A stretch of 64,000 bases of DNA, from the NCBI GenBank assembly GCA_903895255.1, contig CAITTG010000084.1, positions 1 to 64,000 of the forward strand, in the 5' to 3' direction. This DNA comes from an uncultured Verrucomicrobia subdivision 3 bacterium (GTDB lineage Bacteria > Verrucomicrobiota > Verrucomicrobiia > Limisphaerales > UBA11358). Positions 20,431-38,001 of the stretch are shown piece after piece. How positions within the stretch are numbered: the stretch's first letter is position 1; each line of letters begins with the position of its first letter. The position numbers and the translations under genes are program-made. The notes beneath the pieces are model-generated. The model worked only from the letters and a program-made list of their open reading frames with translations. It was not told the origin of the DNA and searched no databases.

Positions 20431-21228
20431 CGCGCATAATTCGGGCTCGGGCCAAGTTTTAATTATATTGCCTGCATGCGGTTATCTCCCCAAAAAGAGC
20501 AACCCGCCGATTTTCGCCGCCTCGGGAACCGATGCTGCACTTGCCGCTTGATTAAATCTTTTAGAATGCTTTAGGACGGTTTTTTTACGACAAATTGGCG
20601 GTCGGGAACCGAAAAAAGTGGTCCGGTTTCAAAGCCAACTTTTTTCGCAGGAGCGATCCGCAAGCGTTTTGCGCGCCGTGCCACCCCTTGCTGCGCCCAT
20701 GGTAAAACCAGTTTAGGGGATATAACCCCTTAGCCTACTCAACGCCCCATGAGCCAGCCCCCTGCATGCATTGGGAGGCGGCCAAGGGCGATGATTGCAG
20801 GTTAGGATGGCCACTCTATGCCCAGCTGCCTGCCTGACTTGGTCGGGCTGACGTCTCCTCCCGGAGTCGGTAATGCGCTTATTGCTCCCTGCCAGTGCTC
20901 GGCGGGGCGGGCCTAATGCTGAAGTCCGTTTGGCTTTCCCCAAATGTCATCGCCATTCATATTCGCCAACCTCCAAACCCAAGGCACAGAAAGCTCCAAA
21001 TATCGCCAGTAGAACCATTTTTGTTTATCTCCGCCGCACTTTTCGCTATAGAACTGCCATGCAACTGTTCAACGGAGCAAATACTGCAAACAACCCGGGC
21101 AGCGTCCGGGCCTTGTCAGCGCTGGATTTGTCAGCCGTTGCTTGCCTCCCGCCCCACACTCCTGGCTGGGATTGCTTCCGGGGTGCGGTTCCCGTACTGG
21201 TCCGCCTCCGCGCCGGGGTCATCGCCCC
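20431..21228. other. Gene-free stretch before the restriction island
   Basis: About 800 bases have no acceptable ORF. A hairpin AGGGGATATAACCCCT lies near 20715-20730. The base composition shifts from G-rich to C-rich along the plus strand across this stretch, so the left boundary of the accessory island probably lies here. No attachment site, tRNA or integrase was recognised. It may hold the promoter of hsdR. Confidence 0.5.
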
Positions 21229-23592
21229 ATGAACAAAAAATCCCTCACCGAGGCGGCCATCCGCACCAAATACATCACGCCCGCCCTCGTCGGCGCCCGT
21301 GGCGAAAAATGGAACGTGATGACCCAAATCCGGGAGGAAGTTTATTTCACCAAGGGGCGCGTGATTGTGCGGGGCAAAACTGTCAATCCCGGTGAAGCCA
21401 AAAAGGCCGACTACTTGCTTTGCTACAAACCGAATCTTCCCCTCGCCGTCGTCGAGGCCAAGGACAATAGCCACACCGTCGGCGCTGGCATGCAGCAGGC
21501 CCTGGAGCAGGCCGAGATTCTCGATGTGCCCTTCGCTTACAGCTCGAACGGTGACGCCTTCCTGGAGCACGACCGCACCGTCACCCACGGCCCTGTCACT
21601 CGGGAAATCCCGCTGGACCAATTCCCCACCCCGGACGAACTTTGGAACCGCTACTGCCGCGCCAAGGGCTACACCTCCGGTCAGGAGGCTGTGGCCACGC
21701 AGGATTATTACGATAACGGCTCGCAAAAATCGCCGCGTTACTACCAGCTCATCGCCATCAACCGCACCGTGGATGCCATTGCCCGGGGTGCCAATCGCAT
21801 TTTGCTGGTAATGGCCACCGGCACCGGCAAAACCTACACGGCCTTCCAGATCATCTGGCGGCTGTGGAAATCCGGCACCAAGCAGCGCATCCTGTTCCTC
21901 GTCGATCGCAACATCCTTGCCGACCAGACGAAAACCAACGACTTCAAACCCTTCGGCACGGCGATGACGAAAATCACGAACCGCACGGTGGACAAGTCAT
22001 TTGAGATTTACCTCTGCCTGTACCAGGCCGTGACCGGCACCGAGGAGGATCAAAACATCTACACCCAGTTCTCGCCCGATTTCTTTGACCTCATTGTCGT
22101 GGATGAGTGTCACCGGGGCAGTGCCGCTGACGATGCCGCCTGGCGCAAAGTGCTCGAATATTTCACCTCCGCCACCCAGATTGACCTCACCGCCACGCCC
22201 AAGGAAACCAGGGACATTTCCAACATCGAATACTTTGGCGACCCCATTTACACGTATTCATTGCGGCAGGGTATTGCCGATGGCTTTCTCGCTCCCTACA
22301 AAGTCGTCCGCATTGGCCTCGACCGCGACCTCGATGGCTGGCGGCCCTTTGATGGCCAGACCGACAAATTCGGCCAGCTCATCGAAGACCGGGAATACAA
22401 CGATCGCGACTTCGACCGCACCCTCATCCTCGAAAAGCGCACCACCCTGGTGGCCGCCAAAGTCACCGAGTTCCTCACGGCCACCAATCGTTTCGCCAAG
22501 ACGATTATCTTCTGTGAGAACATCGACCATGCCGAACGCATGCGCCAGGCCATGGTCAATGCCAACCCCGATCTCGCCGCCGCCAATGCCAAGTATGTCA
22601 TGCGCATTACCGGCGACAACGACGAGGGCAAGGCCCAGCTCGATAATTTCATCGACCCCGAGTCCACCCACCCGGTGGTGGCCTGCACCTCCCGCCTCAT
22701 GAGCACGGGCGTGGATGCCCAGACCTGCCACCTCATTGTGCTGGACCGCCGCATCGCCTCCATGACCGAGTTCAAGCAAATCATCGGTCGCGGCACCCGC
22801 ATCAACGAGGATTACAACAAGCTGTTTTTCACCATCATGGATTTCAAACGGGCCACCGCCATGTTTGCGGACCCCGCCTTCGACGGCGATCCCGTGCAAA
22901 TCTACGAGCCGGCGGAAGGCGAAACCGTTGTCCCACCCGATGAAGCAGCCGCTGTCGGTGCTGAGGCCATGCACGATGCTCCCTTGGTGGACCCCTTCGG
23001 CGGCGATTCCCCGGATGGCACCCGCCCCACTCGGTACTATATTGACAACGTCGAAGTCCGCGTGGCCACCGAGCGTGTCCAATACCTCGATGAACACGGC
23101 CGGCTCATCACCGAATCGCTCAAGGATTACTCCCGCAAGACCGTCCGCAAATCCTACAAGTCGCTCAACGCCTTTCTCACCGTCTGGAATCAGGCCGAGA
23201 GGAAGCAGGCCATTTTGGAGGAACTCGCCGCCCAGGGCGTCTTCCTCAATGAACTGGCTGAGCAAGTCGGCCGCGATTACGACGCCTTCGACCTTATCTG
23301 CCATGTCGCCTTCGATGCGCCGCCGCTCACCCGCCGGGAGCGGGCCGAGCGCGTGAAAAAGCGCGATGTCTTCGCCAGGTATGGCGGCAAGGCCCGCGCC
23401 GTGCTGGAGGCCTTGCTCCAGAAATTTGCCGATAGTGGCATCGCCAGCGTCGAATCCCTCGAAATCCTCAAAGTCGATCCGCTCACCGCCTTCGGCACGC
23501 CCGTGGAAATTGTAACCCTTTTCGGCGGCAAACCCGCCTACCTCGCGGCCATCCGCGAACTCGAAACCGCCCTTTACCAGAAAGTTGCTTAA
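21229..23592 (+). CDS. hsdR: Type I restriction enzyme, R subunit (HsdR)
   Basis: This is the motor and nuclease subunit of a type I restriction-modification complex, which translocates and cuts DNA lacking the proper methylation. It has 787 residues, EcoEI-R-like in length. The endonuclease site is Asp61 with Glu76-x-Lys78 (VVEAKD). The SF2 helicase core has Walker A GTGK 198-201 and the DECH box at 292-295 (VVDECHRGS), then LTATPKETR and RIIGRGTR-type motifs (QIIGRGTRINED). The start is the ATG of MNKKSLTEAAIRTKYITPAL; a longer in-frame extension upstream is not convincing. Codon use (GCC, CTC) differs from the surrounding genes. It is followed closely by hsdM. Confidence 0.95.
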   Translation: MNKKSLTEAAIRTKYITPALVGARGEKWNVMTQIREEVYFTKGRVIVRGKTVNPGEAKKADYLLCYKPNLPLAVVEAKDNSHTVGAGMQQALEQAEILDVPFAYSSNGDAFLEHDRTVTHGPVTREIPLDQFPTPDELWNRYCRAKGYTSGQEAVATQDYYDNGSQKSPRYYQLIAINRTVDAIARGANRILLVMATGTGKTYTAFQIIWRLWKSGTKQRILFLVDRNILADQTKTNDFKPFGTAMTKITNRTVDKSFEIYLCLYQAVTGTEEDQNIYTQFSPDFFDLIVVDECHRGSAADDAAWRKVLEYFTSATQIDLTATPKETRDISNIEYFGDPIYTYSLRQGIADGFLAPYKVVRIGLDRDLDGWRPFDGQTDKFGQLIEDREYNDRDFDRTLILEKRTTLVAAKVTEFLTATNRFAKTIIFCENIDHAERMRQAMVNANPDLAAANAKYVMRITGDNDEGKAQLDNFIDPESTHPVVACTSRLMSTGVDAQTCHLIVLDRRIASMTEFKQIIGRGTRINEDYNKLFFTIMDFKRATAMFADPAFDGDPVQIYEPAEGETVVPPDEAAAVGAEAMHDAPLVDPFGGDSPDGTRPTRYYIDNVEVRVATERVQYLDEHGRLITESLKDYSRKTVRKSYKSLNAFLTVWNQAERKQAILEELAAQGVFLNELAEQVGRDYDAFDLICHVAFDAPPLTRRERAERVKKRDVFARYGGKARAVLEALLQKFADSGIASVESLEILKVDPLTAFGTPVEIVTLFGGKPAYLAAIRELETALYQKVA

Positions 23593-23598
23593 CCCCCC

Positions 23599-24819
23599 AT
23601 GCCCAACGTCTCCAATCTCGTCAAAACCATCCAGGACATCATGCGCAAGGACGCCGGCACCTACGGCGATGCCCAGCGCCTGGAGCAGCTCGGCTGGATG
23701 TTCTTCCTGAAAATCTTCGATGACCGCGAAAAGGAGATGGAAGTCCTGCGCGATAACTACAAATCGCCCCTGCCCAAACACCTCCGCTGGTCCACCTGGG
23801 CCACCGACGATGAAGGCATCACCGGCGATGCCTTGCTGGACTTCGTCAATAACACCCTCCTGCCCAAGTTAAAAGCCCTCACCAGCGGCGGCGACCAAAT
23901 CACCTCGCTCATCCGCTCCGTTTTTGAGGATGCCAACAACTACATGAAAAACGGCACGTTGATGCGCCAGGTCATCAACAAGATCAACGGTATTGATTTC
24001 AATGCCTCCGATGACCGCCACCTGTTCGGCGACATTTACGAAAAGCTCCTCAAAGACCTCCAATCCGCCGGCAATGCCGGCGAATTCTATACCCCCCGCG
24101 CCGTCACCCAGTTCATCGTCGAGCAGGTCGATCCGCGCGTGGGCGAAACCATTCTCGACCCCGCCTGCGGCACCGGCGGCTTCCTTGTTTGCGCCATCGA
24201 GCACCTGCGCAAACAGGCCAAAACCGAGGCCCACGAGCGCCTTATTCAGGAGTGCTTCTCCGGCATTGAGAAAAAGCATCTCCCGCACGTCTTGTGCATG
24301 ACCAATCTCCTCCTGCACGGGATCGATGTCCCCTCGAATGTCCGCCACGACAATACCCTGGCCCGGCCGCTGCGCGACTGGGGCCCCAAGGAGCGGGTCG
24401 ATGTCATCGTCACGAACCCGCCCTTCGGCGGCATGGAGGAGGACGGCATTGAGTCCAATTACCCCGCCGAGTTCCGCACCCGGGAAACCGCCGACCTCTT
24501 CCTCGTGCTCCTCATGAAGATCCTCAAGCCCGGTGGCCGTGCCGGGTTGGTGTTGCCCGATGGCACCCTGTTTGGCGAAGGCGTTAAAACCCGCATCAAG
24601 GAAGCCCTCCTCACCGAGTGCAATTTGCACACCATTGTCCGCCTCCCCAATGGCGTCTTCAATCCCTACACCGGCATCCGCACCAACCTGCTTTTCTTCA
24701 CCAAAGGAGCGCCGACCACAAACATTTGGTATTACGAGCACCCCTATCCCCCCGGAGCCAAAAGCTACAACAAGGGCAAACCCATCAGCATCGAAGAATT
24801 CGCGGGCGAACGCGCTTAG
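23599..24819 (+). CDS. hsdM: Type I DNA methyltransferase M subunit (HsdM), truncated by an amber codon
   Basis: This adenine-N6 methyltransferase subunit modifies the recognition site set by HsdS and is also part of the restriction complex. The 406 residues include the N-terminal helical domain, the SAM motif DPACGTGG (187-194) and catalytic NPPF (273-276). At 24817-24819 TAG stops the frame after GERA, but translation continues in frame with WGSEKDGFKSRVENDQAWRV, the normal HsdM C-terminus, up to 25074. The family usually has AWWG here, so TGG to TAG is the likely change. The 84 lost residues form the part that contacts HsdS, so activity is doubtful unless the stop is suppressed or is a sequencing error. 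Confidence 0.93.
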   Translation: MPNVSNLVKTIQDIMRKDAGTYGDAQRLEQLGWMFFLKIFDDREKEMEVLRDNYKSPLPKHLRWSTWATDDEGITGDALLDFVNNTLLPKLKALTSGGDQITSLIRSVFEDANNYMKNGTLMRQVINKINGIDFNASDDRHLFGDIYEKLLKDLQSAGNAGEFYTPRAVTQFIVEQVDPRVGETILDPACGTGGFLVCAIEHLRKQAKTEAHERLIQECFSGIEKKHLPHVLCMTNLLLHGIDVPSNVRHDNTLARPLRDWGPKERVDVIVTNPPFGGMEEDGIESNYPAEFRTRETADLFLVLLMKILKPGGRAGLVLPDGTLFGEGVKTRIKEALLTECNLHTIVRLPNGVFNPYTGIRTNLLFFTKGAPTTNIWYYEHPYPPGAKSYNKGKPISIEEFAGERA

Positions 24820-25074
24820 TGGGGCTCGGAAAAAGATGGTTTCAAATCCCGCGTGGAAAACGATCAAGCCTGGCGGGTCTCCCTCGACCAGATCAAGGCC
24901 GGCAATTTCAACCTCGACCTCAAGAATCCACACAACCCCGACGACGGCCCCGGCGACCTGGACCACCTCCTGCCCGAATACGAAAAACTCCTGGCCCAAA
25001 TCGCCGCCACCCGTGCGGCGCTCAAGCAGGAACTTCACCGCGCTTTGACTGCCTCAGCCAGGAGTGCTGAATGA
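24820..25074 (+). pseudogene. hsdM: 3' remainder of hsdM after the amber stop
   Basis: These 84 in-frame codons continue HsdM directly beyond the TAG: DQIKAGNFNLDLKNPHNPDD is a standard HsdM C-terminal motif, then comes a helix that packs against HsdS. The stop TGA (25072-25074) overlaps the hsdS ATG at 25071, so the ancestral operon was translationally coupled through this end. An ATG at 24853 could restart translation and give a 73-residue fragment. Confidence 0.88.
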
Positions 25075-26711
25075 ATCTGGCAACTTTTTTTGAGAAGTTT
25101 GATCAATTCGCCGAAGCGCCCGGCGCAGTGGCGAAGATGCGAGAACTGGTCCTTGATTGGGCGGCCTCTGGAAATTTATGCCACAACGATTCTTTCGAAT
25201 GGTTCGAAGGCCTCTTGGGCGATGTTGTAGATCTTATCTCGGGGCAACACTTGCTTGGGCATGAACAAAACGAGGAGAGACGTGGCATTCCATACCTGAC
25301 TGGCCCGTCCGAATTCGGAGATAAAAGTCCAATTCCAACGCGCTGGACTGATCAGCCGAAAGTCACGGCTGAACCGGGCGACATCTTAATCACTGTGAAA
25401 GGATCAGGCGTTGGCAAGACAAACCTCCTTGTCGACCAGCCAACTGCAATCAGCCGTCAACTAATGGCAATCCGAGTAACCGGGGCTAATCCCGAGTTCG
25501 TGCACATCGTACTGAGGCGGGCAGCAGGATACTTCCAGAACGCTAAAACAGGAATCGCAATTCCAGGCATAGGGAGAAGAGACGTGTTGAACTTGAAAGT
25601 TGTTTTACCTCCACTCGCTGAACAGAAGCGAATCGTGGCAAAGGTGGATGAGTTAATGGCGTTGTGCGACAAATTGGAGGCGCAGCAGCAGGAACGGGAG
25701 ACGCGGCACGCCGCGCTCGCCCGCGCGTCGCTCACGCGCTTTGCCGAGGCCCCCACCCCGGCCAATCTCAATTTCCTATTCCACAAGTCATACACGATTC
25801 AACCCGCCGACCTCCGCAAATCCATCCTCACCCTCGCCGTCCGAGGCAAACTCGTCCCCCAAGACCCCAATGACGAACCGGCGCACAAATTATTTGTTCG
25901 AATTCAAGATGCCAAAAATCAACTAATCAATCAAAGAGCGATCAAACCCTTCTCAGTAGAATCTAATCCAAGTGGCGATGAATTAGACCCGCTCCCGCCA
26001 GGCTGGATTTGGACCAGATTGGGAAACTCTTTCGATGTCCGTGACGGAACTCACGACACACCTAAATATACAGCCGAAGGATTCCCGTTGATCACGAGTA
26101 AGAATATCTACTCTGGAAGGCTCTTATTCGACGGGGCCAATTTCATTTCGGAGGCGGACCACCGCCAAATCTGTGAGCGCTCGCGAGTGGGCCGCGGAGA
26201 CATACTCTTTGCTATGATAGGGAGCATTGGGAACCCGGCCATCGTGGACACGGATCGGGAGTTCAGCATCAAGAACGTTGCCCTTTTCAAATATTACGCC
26301 GCAGCCGATTCGGAGCCTCACTTTCTTCTCTTGTACCTAAAGCTCGTAGCCGAGGAGATGCGCGCAAAAGCTGCTGGAGGCGTTCAGTCATTCGTTTCTC
26401 TTGGATTCCTAAGGAATTACCTCTTCCCGCTCCCACCCCTCGCCGAGCAGCGCCGAATCGTGGCCAAAGTGGATCAAGTAATGTCGTTGGTTGACAAGTT
26501 GGAGGCACAGCTTACCGGCATTTGGGGCGGACGTGCGCGGCATGATTCGGGGATTACGAGCGAGCATCCAAGCGACGGCGCGCACGCCGTGGGCTGTGGA
26601 ACTTCCCGAAAATTCGGTAGCAGCAGCGGAGCACCGATTAAAGCATCAGCGCGGCGGATTCATTTATCAAGAGACTTTGCCTTCAGTCAGCCTGCTGGAA
26701 TGGACTGGTAA
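25071..26711 (+). CDS. hsdS: Type I specificity subunit (HsdS) with aberrant C-terminus
   Basis: This subunit recognises the DNA target for both methylation and restriction. It has 546 residues: target domain 1 (about 45-185), conserved spacer helix PLAEQKRIVAKVDELMALCD (from about 182), target domain 2 (about 300-450) and the second copy PLAEQRRIVAKVDQVMSLVD (from about 455). After KLEAQLT the sequence changes to a low-complexity tail of about 60 residues (GIWGGRARHDSG onward, ending PAGMDW), unlike the usual short helix ending. A recombination or frameshift near 26515 is likely. The start overlaps the hsdM end by ATGA. Confidence 0.92.
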   Translation: MNLATFFEKFDQFAEAPGAVAKMRELVLDWAASGNLCHNDSFEWFEGLLGDVVDLISGQHLLGHEQNEERRGIPYLTGPSEFGDKSPIPTRWTDQPKVTAEPGDILITVKGSGVGKTNLLVDQPTAISRQLMAIRVTGANPEFVHIVLRRAAGYFQNAKTGIAIPGIGRRDVLNLKVVLPPLAEQKRIVAKVDELMALCDKLEAQQQERETRHAALARASLTRFAEAPTPANLNFLFHKSYTIQPADLRKSILTLAVRGKLVPQDPNDEPAHKLFVRIQDAKNQLINQRAIKPFSVESNPSGDELDPLPPGWIWTRLGNSFDVRDGTHDTPKYTAEGFPLITSKNIYSGRLLFDGANFISEADHRQICERSRVGRGDILFAMIGSIGNPAIVDTDREFSIKNVALFKYYAAADSEPHFLLLYLKLVAEEMRAKAAGGVQSFVSLGFLRNYLFPLPPLAEQRRIVAKVDQVMSLVDKLEAQLTGIWGGRARHDSGITSEHPSDGAHAVGCGTSRKFGSSSGAPIKASARRIHLSRDFAFSQPAGMDW

Positions 26712-26936: not shown

Positions 26937-28307
26937 CTATAACAAATCCTCATGGGCGAGCCACGAGGGCGGCTCGATGCGGTCCAGCGCGCCCTCGGCG
27001 TTTTGCTTGAGCCGCGCACCCAACCGCACAAAGAAGGCCAGCAGGTTTTGCTCCCCCTGGCCGAACTCAATCACCGCCTGGCGCTGAAAAGCCACATCCA
27101 GAAGATAGCTGTCAATGGGGTCAGATTCCCGCTCCCGTGGTTGCTTGGCATAGGCCGATAGTTGCACCGTGCCCGCCCGCGGGAGGTAGGAAAAAATCTC
27201 GGCCGCCAGAAACAGGCATTCCCCCAACGCCAGCCGGGTGTAATCCGCCTGCCGCTCCGCCTTCGTCCGCCGGGTTTCCCGGGGCTCGCCGCGCGCTGAA
27301 AGCTCCGTTCGGGTCTCCGGGATGACCTCCTCCAAAACCGGCAATTCCAGTTGCAGAAAAACCGCTTCCGGATCGCGCAGGAAGAAATCACAGTGCAGTT
27401 TGAAGGGCAGTTGCAAACCGCCCAGCAACTCGGTGAGGGTGTGGTGGGTTTCCTCGACGTCCCCGGCCAGCAACCGCCCCACCCATTCCGTTCGCTTGGT
27501 TTCTGCCGCCTCCCAGGCGGCCGCCTCGGCCGCCAGCGCTTGCTGATACTCCGCCGTCCGGCGCTCATAATCCGCCTGGAGGCCGGCCGCGCGCTCCGGC
27601 CAGGCTGTGGCCATGTCCTTTTCCGCTGCGTGACTGGCCACGAACCCCGGCAACATCCGGCCCAGCCCCGTGGCCGCATGTTTGGCCGTCAATTCCGCCA
27701 ATAAATCGGCCTGCGCTTTGACGAGGTCCGGTGCCACCGGCACCGGCAGCTTGGATGCAAAAGGTTGCCTGGCTTGCGCCGCCTGCCACTGCTCCAGCCC
27801 GGCAATTTCCGGCAGCGGCTGCCAGAAATTCAAAAGATGAGCGTAATCCTCCGCCCGCTGGTCGAGTTCCAGTTGCAGCTTCTCCAACTTTTCTTTGCGA
27901 TCGTTGGCCTTGATTTTCGCCTCCAGCCGGGCCGGTGTGAGCCGCCGCCCCGTTTCCGGATCAATGAGCTTGAGCCGGGGATCCGCCAGATACTGCCGCG
28001 CCTGCTCCACCGTGAGCGTTTCATGCAGCGTGCCCTCCTGGGCGATTCGCTGGATCACCCCGTCATTCTCTGGATTCCCCGGCATCGCAGCGGGCCCAGA
28101 CCGTCCACTGCGCTCACTGCGCCCACCACCCACCCGTTGCCGATACGAGAGGCCCGTCCCCGGCAGCCCCACACTGGCATAGGTCCCCCGCGACCCGAAA
28201 TTGAGGTGCGCCCCCGGCACTCCAGCCGACAGCGAAACCCCGCTGCCGCTGAAATTGAGTTTCAGCCCCGGCAAAATGCTCATCCGCCGACTAAATCGAA
28301 AGCCCAT
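26937..28307 (-). CDS. DUF4236 protein with long coiled region
   Basis: This encodes 456 residues from the ATG that opens MGFRFSRRMSILPGLKLNFS. Residues 1-55 are a DUF4236 domain (GSGVSLSAGVPGAHLNFG), a small beta module of unknown function often found at protein N-termini beside other domains. The remainder is long, charged and Ala/Leu/Gln/Glu-rich, probably helical, with no recognised domain and no membrane segment. It faces hsdS across a 225-base gap (26712-26936, nothing seen) and is divergent from the ASCH gene. Its location in an island with restriction genes makes a defence-related or mobile-element role possible but unproven. Confidence 0.82.
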   Translation of the reverse strand: MGFRFSRRMSILPGLKLNFSGSGVSLSAGVPGAHLNFGSRGTYASVGLPGTGLSYRQRVGGGRSERSGRSGPAAMPGNPENDGVIQRIAQEGTLHETLTVEQARQYLADPRLKLIDPETGRRLTPARLEAKIKANDRKEKLEKLQLELDQRAEDYAHLLNFWQPLPEIAGLEQWQAAQARQPFASKLPVPVAPDLVKAQADLLAELTAKHAATGLGRMLPGFVASHAAEKDMATAWPERAAGLQADYERRTAEYQQALAAEAAAWEAAETKRTEWVGRLLAGDVEETHHTLTELLGGLQLPFKLHCDFFLRDPEAVFLQLELPVLEEVIPETRTELSARGEPRETRRTKAERQADYTRLALGECLFLAAEIFSYLPRAGTVQLSAYAKQPRERESDPIDSYLLDVAFQRQAVIEFGQGEQNLLAFFVRLGARLKQNAEGALDRIEPPSWLAHEDLL

Positions 28308-28466
28308 GACTTTTAGGTGATGTTCCCGGAATTTTCCACGCCAGCCATAATGGCGCAAAGCCCCGCCAAAAACAAATTCTCTGAAAGCTTAACGGCTGCC
28401 AGCAAACTCGGGGCGTTTCTTCGTTGCCAAGCTTAATAAACTGTGGCAAAACCGGATACGTAATTT

Positions 28467-28760: not shown

Positions 28761-29519
28761 ATGCCGGATCGGGGACCGTTGCCCTTCATGAAGGATTTGG
28801 CCGAAGCCCGGGCGCTCTGCGAACGCGAGGGCGACAGCTTTTACGTGGATGCCTTTTTGTTTGAGGCCTGGCTGGGCATGGTGTCGCTGGCAGCGGCAGC
28901 GGAATATGCAGAAAAAAAACGCGCGAAAGACCGGACCATGCAATCCGGAAACTCCTGGCAGGTTTTTGGGGGGATTTTTGCCGGGGCACGGCTGCAGGAT
29001 TTTCCGCATATCATGGAAAGTCTTTGCCGGTTTTCCGAATATGATGACGTGCAGTCCCGATTGTTGCGGCAGTCTGCCATTCCCCTGTCCCGGGAGCATG
29101 AATTCTTTCGTGATTATGTGGGTCCCCAAACCTTTGGTGTTTTAAAAAATCCCGTGGCGGCCATGCAAATGGCCCGCCGCACCGTTGAGCGGTGGTGCGA
29201 TTGGCTGGACGCATTGATTCATTTTCAAACTCACGCAAGCTGGCATTGTCAGCCAGCGAGATTTGATCCGGACCCGGAAAAAAGGGAATTGGCCGCCTTG
29301 GGCATCAATCAGCGAAATTTTGCCGAATTAAATGACTTCGGTAAAACCTGGTGGCAATGGCACCATGGTGAGGCCGCCGAGCGATTCAAAGCATCTCCCA
29401 AATGGTCGACCCTGGGCAAGGCCATGGCTGATGAAAGTGAACGGGTGTGGAATTATCCCGATTTGGATGGCGTCATCATTTCCATTTGGCCCCTGCTCAA
29501 GAAATTTAATTGGACCTAG
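28761..29519 (+). CDS. Unknown protein in an operon with the ASCH gene
   Basis: This encodes 252 residues without signal peptide or membrane segments, rich in Trp, Phe and His (for example WWQWHHGEAAERF near 193-205) and mostly helical. No known motif was recognised. It starts 3 bases after the ASCH gene's stop, so the two are probably expressed together. Codon use is less extreme than in hsdRMS. The 240 bases after it (29520-29761) contain no convincing gene. Confidence 0.72.
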   Translation: MPDRGPLPFMKDLAEARALCEREGDSFYVDAFLFEAWLGMVSLAAAAEYAEKKRAKDRTMQSGNSWQVFGGIFAGARLQDFPHIMESLCRFSEYDDVQSRLLRQSAIPLSREHEFFRDYVGPQTFGVLKNPVAAMQMARRTVERWCDWLDALIHFQTHASWHCQPARFDPDPEKRELAALGINQRNFAELNDFGKTWWQWHHGEAAERFKASPKWSTLGKAMADESERVWNYPDLDGVIISIWPLLKKFNWT

Positions 29520-29761: not shown

Positions 29762-29974
29762 ATGCTGCATAATGCGGGTAGTATGAATTGGTTCAATGTT
29801 GATTCGAGCGCCATCCAGACCGTCGGGTACGACGGCCACACTCTGGCCATCATTTTTCACTCTGGTCGTCGCTATGACCTCCCCGGTGTGCCGGAGTCCG
29901 TGTTCCACGAGTTTGTTAACTCCAATTCCTTGGGGGCCTATTTCAACCGTTACCTGCGCGGGAGGTATGGATGA
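29762..29974 (+). CDS. KTSC domain protein
   Basis: This encodes 70 residues, or 63 if started at the second ATG (29783, MNWFNVDSSAIQTVGYDG). The pattern SS-I-VGYD, then an F-SG-YDLPGVPESVF stretch and a final SLGAYFNRYLRGRY is the KTSC domain, a small beta-alpha module seen alone or at the C-terminus of lysyl-tRNA-synthetase-like and phage proteins, with no fixed function. It heads a tight five-gene cassette: its stop overlaps the next start as ATGA at 29971. Confidence 0.85.
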   Translation: MLHNAGSMNWFNVDSSAIQTVGYDGHTLAIIFHSGRRYDLPGVPESVFHEFVNSNSLGAYFNRYLRGRYG

Positions 29975-30402
29975 GCCAGCCTAACGCCCGGCAAATCGCC
30001 GCCTTGGCCGCCCTGCGTGAGCTCGCCGCCGAGGCCCGTGAACTGCAAGCCGCCGCCGGTGGTTCCGTCACCGAAACCGTCGCGGCCTGGCTGGCCCCGC
30101 AATACCTGCTGGCCGCCCGCGAAAAACTGTCCGGCGCCACCGGCGCGGACCGCTTCAACGTGCTCCGCACCTTCCTGCAGGACTGGTCCCTCCTGCGGCG
30201 CGGCGACCAGGCCGCCGCCCGCCTGCAATTGGACCGCGAGGAATTCGCCGCCCTGCAAGCCCAGCGCCAGGTGGATAAACAGGCGGAGTTTCGGGAATGG
30301 ATCAAGCGGCCGGAGGTTTTGGCCGAACTGTTCCCGGATCGTAAAGCCGGCCTGAGCGCCGAAACCATCAGAAAAATCGAACGGGAATTGAAATTGTTTT
30401 GA
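29971..30402 (+). CDS. Helical protein, partial paralogue of the 303-residue cassette protein
   Basis: This encodes 143 residues, all helical and Ala/Arg/Glu-rich. Residues about 15-100 align with residues about 75-165 of the protein at 30769-31680: both have a RELAA-A-EL segment, GG-(R/S)-(L/V)T-(D/E), an A-YA-like helix, then LRRGD followed by an Ala-Arg-Leu helix (ELRRGDHSGARL versus LLRRGDQAAARL). It lacks the N-terminal LPREIREELNRRL domain of that protein. Start and end overlap both neighbours (ATGA, TTGA), implying coupled translation. No function known. Confidence 0.7.
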   Translation: MSQPNARQIAALAALRELAAEARELQAAAGGSVTETVAAWLAPQYLLAAREKLSGATGADRFNVLRTFLQDWSLLRRGDQAAARLQLDREEFAALQAQRQVDKQAEFREWIKRPEVLAELFPDRKAGLSAETIRKIERELKLF

Positions 30403-30593
30403 ATCGCCACCGCAAACCACCTTATCGGCGTCCGGTCAGCCTGGTCTGGCGTCCGGCCTTTGAACGCCTTAACGCGGCCCTGAACGAGTATCTGGAGGGC
30501 TATTACGAGGAGGAAAGGCGACGGCGCTATGTCGATTATTGCGCGGCCAAGCCGGCACCGCAACCTGAGCGTCCCATTATCCGTCAAGCATGA
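30399..30593 (+). CDS. Tiny basic protein in the KTSC cassette
   Basis: This encodes 64 residues starting at TTG (overlapping the upstream TGA as TTGA) and ending with an ATGA overlap onto the next gene. It contains the segment SLVWRPAFERLNAALNEYLE and many Arg, Tyr and Pro residues. The next small protein has a related SVYAQSFARLSAALAKA, so the two may be diverged copies. The weak start codon lowers confidence, but the unbroken chain of overlaps supports it. Confidence 0.5.
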   Translation: MNRHRKPPYRRPVSLVWRPAFERLNAALNEYLEGYYEEERRRRYVDYCAAKPAPQPERPIIRQA

Positions 30594-30772
30594 AACCAAA
30601 ACCAAAAACTCGACAACGACCAAAGGTGGATTCGGTGTATGCCCAGTCCTTTGCCCGGTTAAGCGCCGCGTTGGCCAAAGCCACCACTCCGGCGGACTTG
30701 ACTGAAGCCGAAAAAACCCGGCTTTGGGTATGCCGTTTGTGGGGTCCGCCACCGCCCGCCTTAAAACCATGA
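30590..30772 (+). CDS. Second tiny basic protein in the KTSC cassette
   Basis: This encodes 60 residues, beginning MKPKPKTRQRPKVDSVYAQS and very basic at the N-terminus, then a short helix resembling that of the preceding gene (F-RL-AAL) and a Pro-rich end. It is joined by ATGA overlaps on both sides. It is too short for a family assignment; a nucleic-acid-binding or structural role is only a guess from the charge. Confidence 0.5.
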   Translation: MKPKPKTRQRPKVDSVYAQSFARLSAALAKATTPADLTEAEKTRLWVCRLWGPPPPALKP

Positions 30773-31680
30773 CGCGCAAGGGTAAAATCGCCCGCCTGCC
30801 CCGCGAAATTCGGGAGGAACTCAACCGCCGCCTCGAGGACGGCGCGGCGGGCGAGCCTTTGCTCGATTGGCTCAACGCATTACCGCCGGTCCAGGCGGTG
30901 CTGGCCGGACAATTTTCCGGGGTGCCCATCAGCAAGCAAAACCTCAGCGAATGGCGCACGGGGGGCTTCGCCGAATGGCAGTCCCGGCAGGAAATGGTGG
31001 CGGATGCGCGCGAGTTGGCGGCCGATGCCGCCGAATTGTCGGCGGTCACGGGCGGCCGGCTCACGGATCATTTGGCGGTTGTCCTGGGCGCCCGGTATGC
31101 CTCCGCCCTGGCGGGTTGGGATGGCCAGCCCAGCGAGGAATTCCACAAAAAACTGAAAGTCTTGCGCGGCATGTGTCAGGACATTGTGGAATTGCGGCGC
31201 GGCGATCACAGCGGGGCCCGCCTGCACATGGAACGTGAACGGATGGAGCAAAAGCGCGAGCGAACCGATGCGGAAGCCGTGGCGCAATTTGAGGAGTGGG
31301 CCAAAATTCCGGCGGTAAAAGATTGGATTTGCCAGGATTGGGTGTCTCCCGAGGAGCGCCGGCGGCGCTTGCTGGCAATTTTCGGCCGCGCCCCCGATCC
31401 GGAGGAACCAGAGGTGCCCGATCCCGTTTCTGCCCCGGCTCAAGCCGACCAATCGGGAACGCCAGCGGATGATACCTCGATCTCTGATCCAGCCCCGCCC
31501 TCAAATCCGACCGAGTCGCCGGTTACAACCATGCCGGAGCCCCCTTCGGCGGAGGCAGGGTCAAACCTGGTCAAACCAAGTCCAACCAAAATCGGGCTGG
31601 CAGCCCATCGGCCGCCACCCGTGCCGAGCTTTGCTGCCGATCCCCGGCAAAACGATCATCGACGGGAGGACGATTCATAA
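30769..31680 (+). CDS. Cassette protein with DUF3486-like N-terminus
   Basis: This encodes 303 residues. The N-terminus (GKIARLPREIREELNRRLED, then VPISKQNLSEWRTGGFAEW, about 4-70) resembles a helix-turn-helix domain like that of Mu gp27/DUF3486 phage packaging proteins. A helical middle (75-200) is shared with the 143-residue protein of the same cassette, and the last 90 residues are a Pro/Ser/Asp-rich disordered tail. The likely start is the ATG overlapping the upstream stop (ATGA); an earlier in-frame ATG at 30724 is possible. A long hairpin (31697-31762) follows. DNA binding is inferred, not shown. Confidence 0.75.
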   Translation: MTRKGKIARLPREIREELNRRLEDGAAGEPLLDWLNALPPVQAVLAGQFSGVPISKQNLSEWRTGGFAEWQSRQEMVADARELAADAAELSAVTGGRLTDHLAVVLGARYASALAGWDGQPSEEFHKKLKVLRGMCQDIVELRRGDHSGARLHMERERMEQKRERTDAEAVAQFEEWAKIPAVKDWICQDWVSPEERRRRLLAIFGRAPDPEEPEVPDPVSAPAQADQSGTPADDTSISDPAPPSNPTESPVTTMPEPPSAEAGSNLVKPSPTKIGLAAHRPPPVPSFAADPRQNDHRREDDS

Positions 31681-37360: not shown

Positions 37361-37606
37361 GTGACAACGATTTGCATTGCGGACAAAGACCGCCTGAAAG
37401 TTCGCGGAATTGAGAATGGAAAGCGCTACCTGGTAAAAAAGGAAGGGGCTGGCTGGCGGATTGAACCAGCCCAGCAAGCGGGCATCCACACCCGTCAAGT
37501 AACTACGGCCAAGCATGATCTTTCGTTTCATCTGGATGCGCTGGCAAGTGAAGGATTTTCCTTTGAGCCGGAGAACAAGGGCCATGTTCCGTCATGCCGG
37601 TTCTAA
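37361..37606 (+). CDS. Putative antitoxin of a VapBC-like pair
   Basis: This encodes 81 residues from a GTG start, with a beta-rich N-terminus (RLKVRGIENGKRYLVKKEG) and no clear DNA-binding motif. It directly precedes and overlaps by 13 bases a PIN-domain toxin gene, the standard antitoxin-first arrangement. The sequence does not match AbrB, PHD or ribbon-helix-helix antitoxins by eye, so the assignment is from position. Confidence 0.6.
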   Translation: MTTICIADKDRLKVRGIENGKRYLVKKEGAGWRIEPAQQAGIHTRQVTTAKHDLSFHLDALASEGFSFEPENKGHVPSCRF

Positions 37607-38001
37607 AATATCTGGCGGATACCAACGCGGTCAGCGACTACTTTCGACCGGGTAATCCAGTCAAGGCGTGGTTTGCCGCTCATCAGGGAGAAATCGGCAT
37701 CTCGACTTTAACCCTGGCGGAAATGCGGCGGGGGATTGAATTAAAGGGCGACACGAAGACGCGACTGGCACTGGAGCGGGTTTTTGATTTTGTTTTGGAA
37801 GACTATAGGGAGGCAATTTACGCTTTTGATGAATCGGCGGCCGCGGAATGGGGCCGAATGATGGCCGAGGCCAAAAACCAGCCAATTCCTTATGATGATT
37901 CATTGATTGGCGCGATTGCGCGCAGCAACGGGTTGATAGTGATCACCCGTAACGAAAAGCATTTTCCCGGCTGCAAGACGGTGAATCCCTGGCGGGTCTA
38001 G
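37594..38001 (+). CDS. PIN-domain ribonuclease toxin (VapC-like)
   Basis: This encodes 135 residues. The acidic metal site of PIN nucleases is present: Asp9 in LADTNAVSDYF, Glu in TLAEMRRGIE (about 43), Asp in PYDDSLIGAIA (about 100) and the final TRNEKHF. Members cleave tRNA or rRNA and are held in check by the antitoxin encoded upstream. It overlaps that gene by 13 bases. It lies in a short insertion-like segment between manA and a repeat-rich gap. Confidence 0.9.
   Translation: MPVLKYLADTNAVSDYFRPGNPVKAWFAAHQGEIGISTLTLAEMRRGIELKGDTKTRLALERVFDFVLEDYREAIYAFDESAAAEWGRMMAEAKNQPIPYDDSLIGAIARSNGLIVITRNEKHFPGCKTVNPWRV

Follow-up and report, generated by a model that had tools for sequence, protein, structure and literature searches.

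Small terminases of the phage Mu gp27 type (PHROG_426) consist of an N-terminal HTH and a helical core, and in viral contigs their genes are followed by those of the large terminase (TerL) and the portal. SaPIs redirect packaging by means of a small terminase (TerS) plus a pac site (PMC6092414), and in S. aureus and E. coli chromosomal defence islands are moved by the packaging of neighbouring phages or PICIs (PMC12829572). Published work describes the KTSC domain, a domain of unknown function, as binding DNA in partnership with HerA and endonucleases (PMC9503650).

The locus described here resembles each of these systems in part. It lies in a 64,000-nt stretch of contig CAITTG010000084.1 (positions 1-64,000), which we call the window, and consists of a cassette of five chained genes at 29762-31680. 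The last of them encodes a protein homologous to Mu gp27 in both HTH and core, but in contrast to the viral relatives it adjoins no phage genes, belongs to a chromosomal clade of its own, is joined to a KTSC gene and carries a repeat array that the phage copies lack. Like SaPIs and PICIs, the cassette combines a TerS homologue and an apparent pac site of its own with the absence of TerL and a link to accessory and defence genes (PMC6092414); unlike them, it shows no tyrosine integrase and no regulator, replication or capsid genes among the ORFs and matches examined, no attachment sites were found, and its operon ends at a core gene. As in lateral transduction, defence islands lie on one side of a TerS/pac-type site, but the pac site there is that of a prophage or PICI, whereas here both TerS and candidate site would be the island's own (PMC12829572). 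The likeness to HerA-KTSC defence ATPases and HerA-KTSC-endoDNase neighbourhoods is that a KTSC domain is attached, in a defence context, to machinery that handles DNA (PMC9503650; 8wiv), although this operon has neither HerA nor a nuclease and its KTSC protein is free-standing.

Table 1 Features of the cassette and its surroundings in the window
Feature	Position	Strand	Basis or remark
Type I restriction-modification genes hsdR, hsdM, hsdS	21142..26711	+	Upstream, same island as the cassette
Gene directly upstream of KTSC, family U2, 252 aa	28761..29519	+	Operon continues upstream
KTSC-domain protein, 70 aa	29762..29974	+	PF13619, E 2e-16; alternative start at the ATG of residue 8
TerS paralogue without N-terminal DNA-binding domain, 143 aa	29971..30402	+	Homology to the 303-aa protein
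Small protein 1, 64 aa, TTG start	30399..30593	+	Small-family profile
Small protein 2, 60 aa	30590..30772	+	Same small family as small protein 1
TerS-like protein, Mu gp27 type, 303 aa	30769..31680	+	PHROG_426, tree, AlphaFold2
Three 10-bp direct repeats GTCAAACCTG GTCAAACCAA GTCCAACC	31560..31587	+	Within the TerS-like gene, at its 3' end
Inverted repeat, 16-bp arms, 23-bp loop	31703..31757	.	CCGGCGGGGGTAATCA...TGATTATCCCCGCCGG, 22 bp past the TerS-like stop

All five chained ORFs are protein-coding. They lie where the original prediction had placed them, with the lengths it had given (70, 143, 64, 60 and 303 aa), and the joins that it had read as ATGA, TTGA, ATGA and ATGA are present in that order. 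The gene set is conserved in other genomes: the full order of KTSC, 143-like, small, small and TerS genes with 4-bp overlaps is found in another member of the Verrucomicrobiota (L107), and three further loci (L108, L109 and L114) have nearly the same order, again with 4-bp overlaps and with a single small gene. Because both order and overlaps recur, the cassette is more than a chance string of ORFs. Between species, dN/dS by the Nei-Gojobori method is 0.17-0.38 for the TerS-like gene, 0.26-0.31 for the 143-aa family, 0.30-0.41 for the KTSC gene and 0.14-0.46 for the first small ORF; two very close pairs give 0.75. The second small ORF is too diverged for this ratio, its dN/dS being saturated, and its coding status rests on profile matches. 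Both tiny ORFs are conserved as proteins, and with the gene set conserved as well, neither of the outcomes that the original prediction had named as refuting it was obtained. Judged by these ratios, the operon is under purifying selection. Gene calls come from a simple ORF caller, and the genomes are mostly metagenome-assembled, with many loci cut by contig ends.

The 303-aa protein is laid out as an N-terminal HTH, a helical core and a disordered tail. The Mu gp27-like N-terminus noticed originally gives a weak match to the Pfam Mu Gp27 family (E 0.29) and a firmer one to PHROG_426, 'terminase small subunit' (E 3e-4), which is matched by 18 of 24 family members (best 1e-7). Since the Pfam match alone is too weak, the assignment depends on PHROG_426, and by this homology the protein is a phage Mu gp27-type TerS. 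AlphaFold2 models its helices confidently to about residue 190, with a pLDDT of about 95 in the HTH and low confidence in the tail; a search of PDB and BFVD with this helical model gave no terminase among the matches listed. The 143-aa protein, to which no role had been given, is a paralogue of the 303-aa one, homologous (E 2.8e-12) to its residues 76-184; because the homology covers just these residues, it represents the TerS core without the HTH head. Orthologues of this headless protein are present in L107, L108, L109, L114 and L119-L121.

The KTSC protein predicted to head the cassette is secure, scoring 60 bits against a gathering cut-off of 25 for PF13619. Its solved relatives are 7x8c, 4rgi and 8wiv, the nearest being a free-standing KTSC protein and, in 8wiv, the C-terminal domain of a HerA helicase. 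The profile of the small family recovers members outside its build set that occupy the same operon place as small protein 1 (L108, 3e-17; L114, 2e-18; L109, 3e-6). A tandem pair is also seen in L107/L040 (60 and 73 aa), and elsewhere the family occurs once or twice at this place. The operon extends upstream beyond the five genes described originally, to a gene of family U2 whose relatives stand upstream of KTSC in L175 and L194 (43 and 34% identity). In the window, the reading frame of this gene meets a TAG at 29517-29519, beyond which the in-frame stretch resembles the C-terminus of the two homologues. Because these homologues continue past the TAG, through the equivalent of 29723, the gene looks broken here, or the assembly is in error. 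The U2 protein has no Pfam or PADLOC match. Across loci, one further gene directly upstream of KTSC is drawn from several unrelated families, in which no known domain was found except a HTH type. A member of another such family, U1 (AlphaFold2 pLDDT 46), was considered as Mad2 of MADS and rejected, the U1 protein tested having no PADLOC match; other members, presumably methyltransferases, account for the 11 'mad2' matches of the upstream sets. At E 0.1, PADLOC matched none of the five cassette proteins and none of five upstream-gene proteins.

Phage and chromosomal relatives of the TerS-like protein differ in their gene neighbours. A scan of IMG/VR yielded 49 viral contigs encoding the HTH (TerS) protein. 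With local profiles, built from a few sequences, a large terminase was found directly downstream of the TerS relative in 47 of the 49, and KTSC beside it in none. In two test loci, PHROGs assigns TerL and portal as well, independently of these profiles, and in one of the two (L059) also TerS, which gives the viral arrangement as TerS-TerL-portal. A scan of GTDB genomes gave 64 chromosomal loci, about 27 with KTSC just upstream and 10 with TerL. None had both, a large terminase adjoining no KTSC-linked locus, and with the viral loci pooled the mutual exclusion is significant (Fisher p 9e-11). In a tree of 120 sequences, all 56 TerL-less chromosomal ones, from Verrucomicrobiota, form one clade (support 98/83) that holds no TerL-linked sequence; 26 of the 56 have KTSC directly upstream. 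The KTSC-linked sequences were considered as a clade of their own, which was rejected, as they are mixed with KTSC-less ones. The operon recurs across several orders, and cassette TerS and phage TerS are 30-45% identical. Ancestry from TerS, loss of the large terminase and domestication are evident from these sequence comparisons, and the simplest history would be a single domestication followed by spread and loss. A 'domesticated phage module', one of the options raised originally, is well supported by the TerS without TerL, the single clade, the KTSC operon and the purifying selection.

The placement next to restriction genes in an accessory island, also noted before, proved to be a recurring one. 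In the window, hsdR (21142-23592) matches PADLOC REase_I (E 0), and hsdM and hsdS were identified by reading the sequence. Among 23 KTSC-linked loci with enough upstream sequence, searched for 10 kb on each side, known or likely defence genes lie upstream in 15 and downstream in none; 8 have no defence gene nearby. As the islands of L192 and L194 are related, the independent cases number 14 or 15, and the sign test gives 6e-5 or 3e-5, respectively. The upstream genes comprise restriction systems of type I, IIG/MmeI, ISP and III, type I-C CRISPR-Cas (two loci), a C2c1 RuvC-like protein, TIR proteins and an AAA_21/AbiEii-like ATPase. Downstream matches to GajB and GlgB were read as a housekeeping UvrD and glycogen branching enzyme and set aside. 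The operon usually stands at the edge of accessory, mostly defence, islands, and the one-sidedness of this association is new relative to the original prediction. The window also holds, between the type I system and the cassette, a minus-strand gene for a 473-aa DUF4236 protein (26937-28358), and at 37361-38001 a PIN-domain gene overlapped by a small ORF upstream of it, likely a toxin-antitoxin pair.

The cassette in the window is flanked by accessory and housekeeping genes only, with no structural or packaging genes beside TerS. No tyrosine integrase is among the matches listed within 30 kb of the cassettes, contigs limiting the reach; no replication, capsid or large-terminase genes were recognised among the adjoining ORFs, and no replication module or master regulator on reading the neighbouring ORFs. 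Of the interpretation first offered, domesticated module and island setting stand, and a satellite in the strict sense is not supported. Flanking direct repeats were sought as element ends and rejected, appearing in L185 only, with short misplaced matches in L172, L188, L197 and L202. L185 has a second array at 506-585, accompanied by the opening codons of a TerS-like gene, some 14 kb to the left of the intact copy; fragment and intact copy bracket an island with a TIR gene, as recombination would leave them. The one empty-site comparison, at the G008 locus upstream of pgl-accA, shows a repeat-rich spacer instead.

A further feature beyond the original prediction is an array of 10-bp tandem direct repeats with the consensus ARTCMRACCN. 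Within the window the motif is matched solely by the copy in the TerS-like gene, and shuffled sequence is expected to give 0 matches. Of 36 TerL-less loci, 29 have an array at the TerS-like gene, most commonly at its 3' end as the last gene and in five loci (L174, L177, L181, L185 and L188) just before it; elsewhere in the flanks of these loci there is none, except beside the TerS 5' fragment of L185. Because arrays are found in any reading frame or after the stop, they constitute a DNA motif. The motif was defined after the loci had been viewed, and the controls (reversed pattern, phage loci, rest of the flanks) were all negative: the reversed pattern has 0 matches in 21 genomes, in 19 of which the true pattern has 1 to 18, and no array is present at any of 49 phage TerS loci. 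Sharing of the array with phages was rejected, as the whole of the IMG/VR contigs yields a single exact match, and none at a phage TerS. Among 59 relatives, array and strong TerS-like matches co-occur (5 of 6 carriers versus 3 of 53 others, p 6e-5). By our count, about 29 of 53 array loci touch a TerS-like gene. Exclusiveness to such genes was rejected, the other 24 or so being elsewhere, often in ordinary intergenic spacers, and the arrays may therefore be a general dispersed repeat. Four of the arrays away from TerS adjoin restriction genes, namely mcrBC in the window's own genome, two type III systems in G348 and a type I system in G354; the G348 arrays (L241 and L242) lie between mod and res, and that of the own genome (L237) follows mcrC.

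We tentatively favour the reading, plausible if somewhat short of probable, that the domesticated TerS of the cassette, stationed with a pac-like site of its own at the border of a defence island, acts in packaging or transfer. A Mu gp27-type small terminase would have been domesticated once in the Verrucomicrobiota and have joined an operon with KTSC, to which a headless TerS paralogue and one or two small helical proteins often belong. The TerS-like protein would have the array as its cognate, pac-like binding site, on which rings may assemble with KTSC and the headless paralogue as partners. On infection by a Mu-like phage with a compatible large terminase, the phage motor would be directed to begin packaging at the array, and neighbouring island DNA could enter capsids and reach other cells through homologous recombination, a transfer akin to lateral transduction without an integrase. 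We infer array binding, ring formation, packaging, transfer and the direction of transfer. A clear related large terminase is held by just 2 of 24 carrier genomes, the window's own not among them, so that a helper from outside would be needed; with 22 of 24 carriers lacking one and no tyrosine integrase among the matches listed, any packaging would need an infecting phage and recombination. The low sequence specificity of the SF6 TerS DNA-binding domain (PMC4737164) implies that an iteron is not required and counts against packaging, as do the arrays away from TerS-like genes and the 8 of 23 loci with no defence gene nearby. It is an unlikely, if conceivable, extension that bacteria-owned TerS and pac-like iterons form a new mobility device at the edge of immune islands, having no integrase, capsid or large terminase, by which infecting phages spread these islands.

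The same defence-gene neighbours can be read differently, with the operon itself as a defence system, which would account for its place among defence genes. TerS look-alikes, the headless paralogue among them, would insert themselves into the ring that an infecting Mu-like phage forms and thereby disrupt packaging, with KTSC as DNA-binding partner. We consider such anti-phage interference doubtful. The headless paralogue does resemble an expected dominant-negative subunit, KTSC has the HerA associations described above (PMC9503650; 8wiv), and most carriers have no resident Mu-like TerL; but a decoy needs no array, and the array is nearly constant, the DNA-binding head has been retained under selection, and minimal KTSC-TerS operons exist without the headless gene. 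Co-assembly is itself doubtful because of the low identity between cassette and phage TerS. Alternatively, the TerS-derived HTH protein might use the arrays as operators, regulating or compacting the island along with a small number of other accessory loci. For such a regulator or nucleoprotein speak the co-occurrence of HTH protein and arrays across genomes, the arrays just before the TerS-like gene and those within or behind restriction operons. The commonest place, however, is a 3' end and not a promoter, many arrays lie in spacers without shared function, and the multiple TerS-like copies, 13 matches in G008, better fit a mobile or selfish module, so we regard this role as rather improbable.

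Least credible by far is a decaying Mu-like prophage remnant with no present function. The TerS ancestry would agree with it, as would a locus on another contig of the own genome (C135; L007:2117-3818), a decayed phage packaging module beside a restriction gene in which a TerS-core paralogue is followed by a truncated large-terminase-like ORF and an N6 DNA methylase. For the operon, however, decay is largely refuted: plain decay leaves unexplained both the purifying selection and the recurrence in about 27 loci of several orders, never with TerL, and KTSC is not found beside phage TerS.

How chromosomal defence islands without an integrase move is an open question, which a domesticated TerS and a candidate pac array at an island border would make testable in one locus. 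If packaging by way of the array is true, bacteria may keep a packaging tag on their immune genes; a TerS decoy would be a new way to block packaging. Either way, KTSC gains a defined partner.

TerS-like genes vary in copy number: the window's own genome has three further copies of the 303-aa gene, and against the 13 matches of G008 most relatives have none. Many copies in G008 (L043, L044, L052-L054 and L057) lie at the ends of contigs, where repeats amplified recently would be expected. In a JAPLTR genome, the identity between two copies (L154 and L159) is 95% starting 6 bp ahead of the start codon, and the sequence farther upstream does not match in register, a pattern suggesting gene-precise exchange. 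The inverted repeat past the TerS-like stop is possibly a terminator or a REP-like element; a hairpin conserved 3' of the TerS-like gene was considered and rejected, as the hairpin is not conserved. Two arrays of the own genome, one after mcrBC (L237, on C6) and one before an efflux pump gene (L238, on C92), have one and the same short inverted repeat around them and look like a small repeat element.
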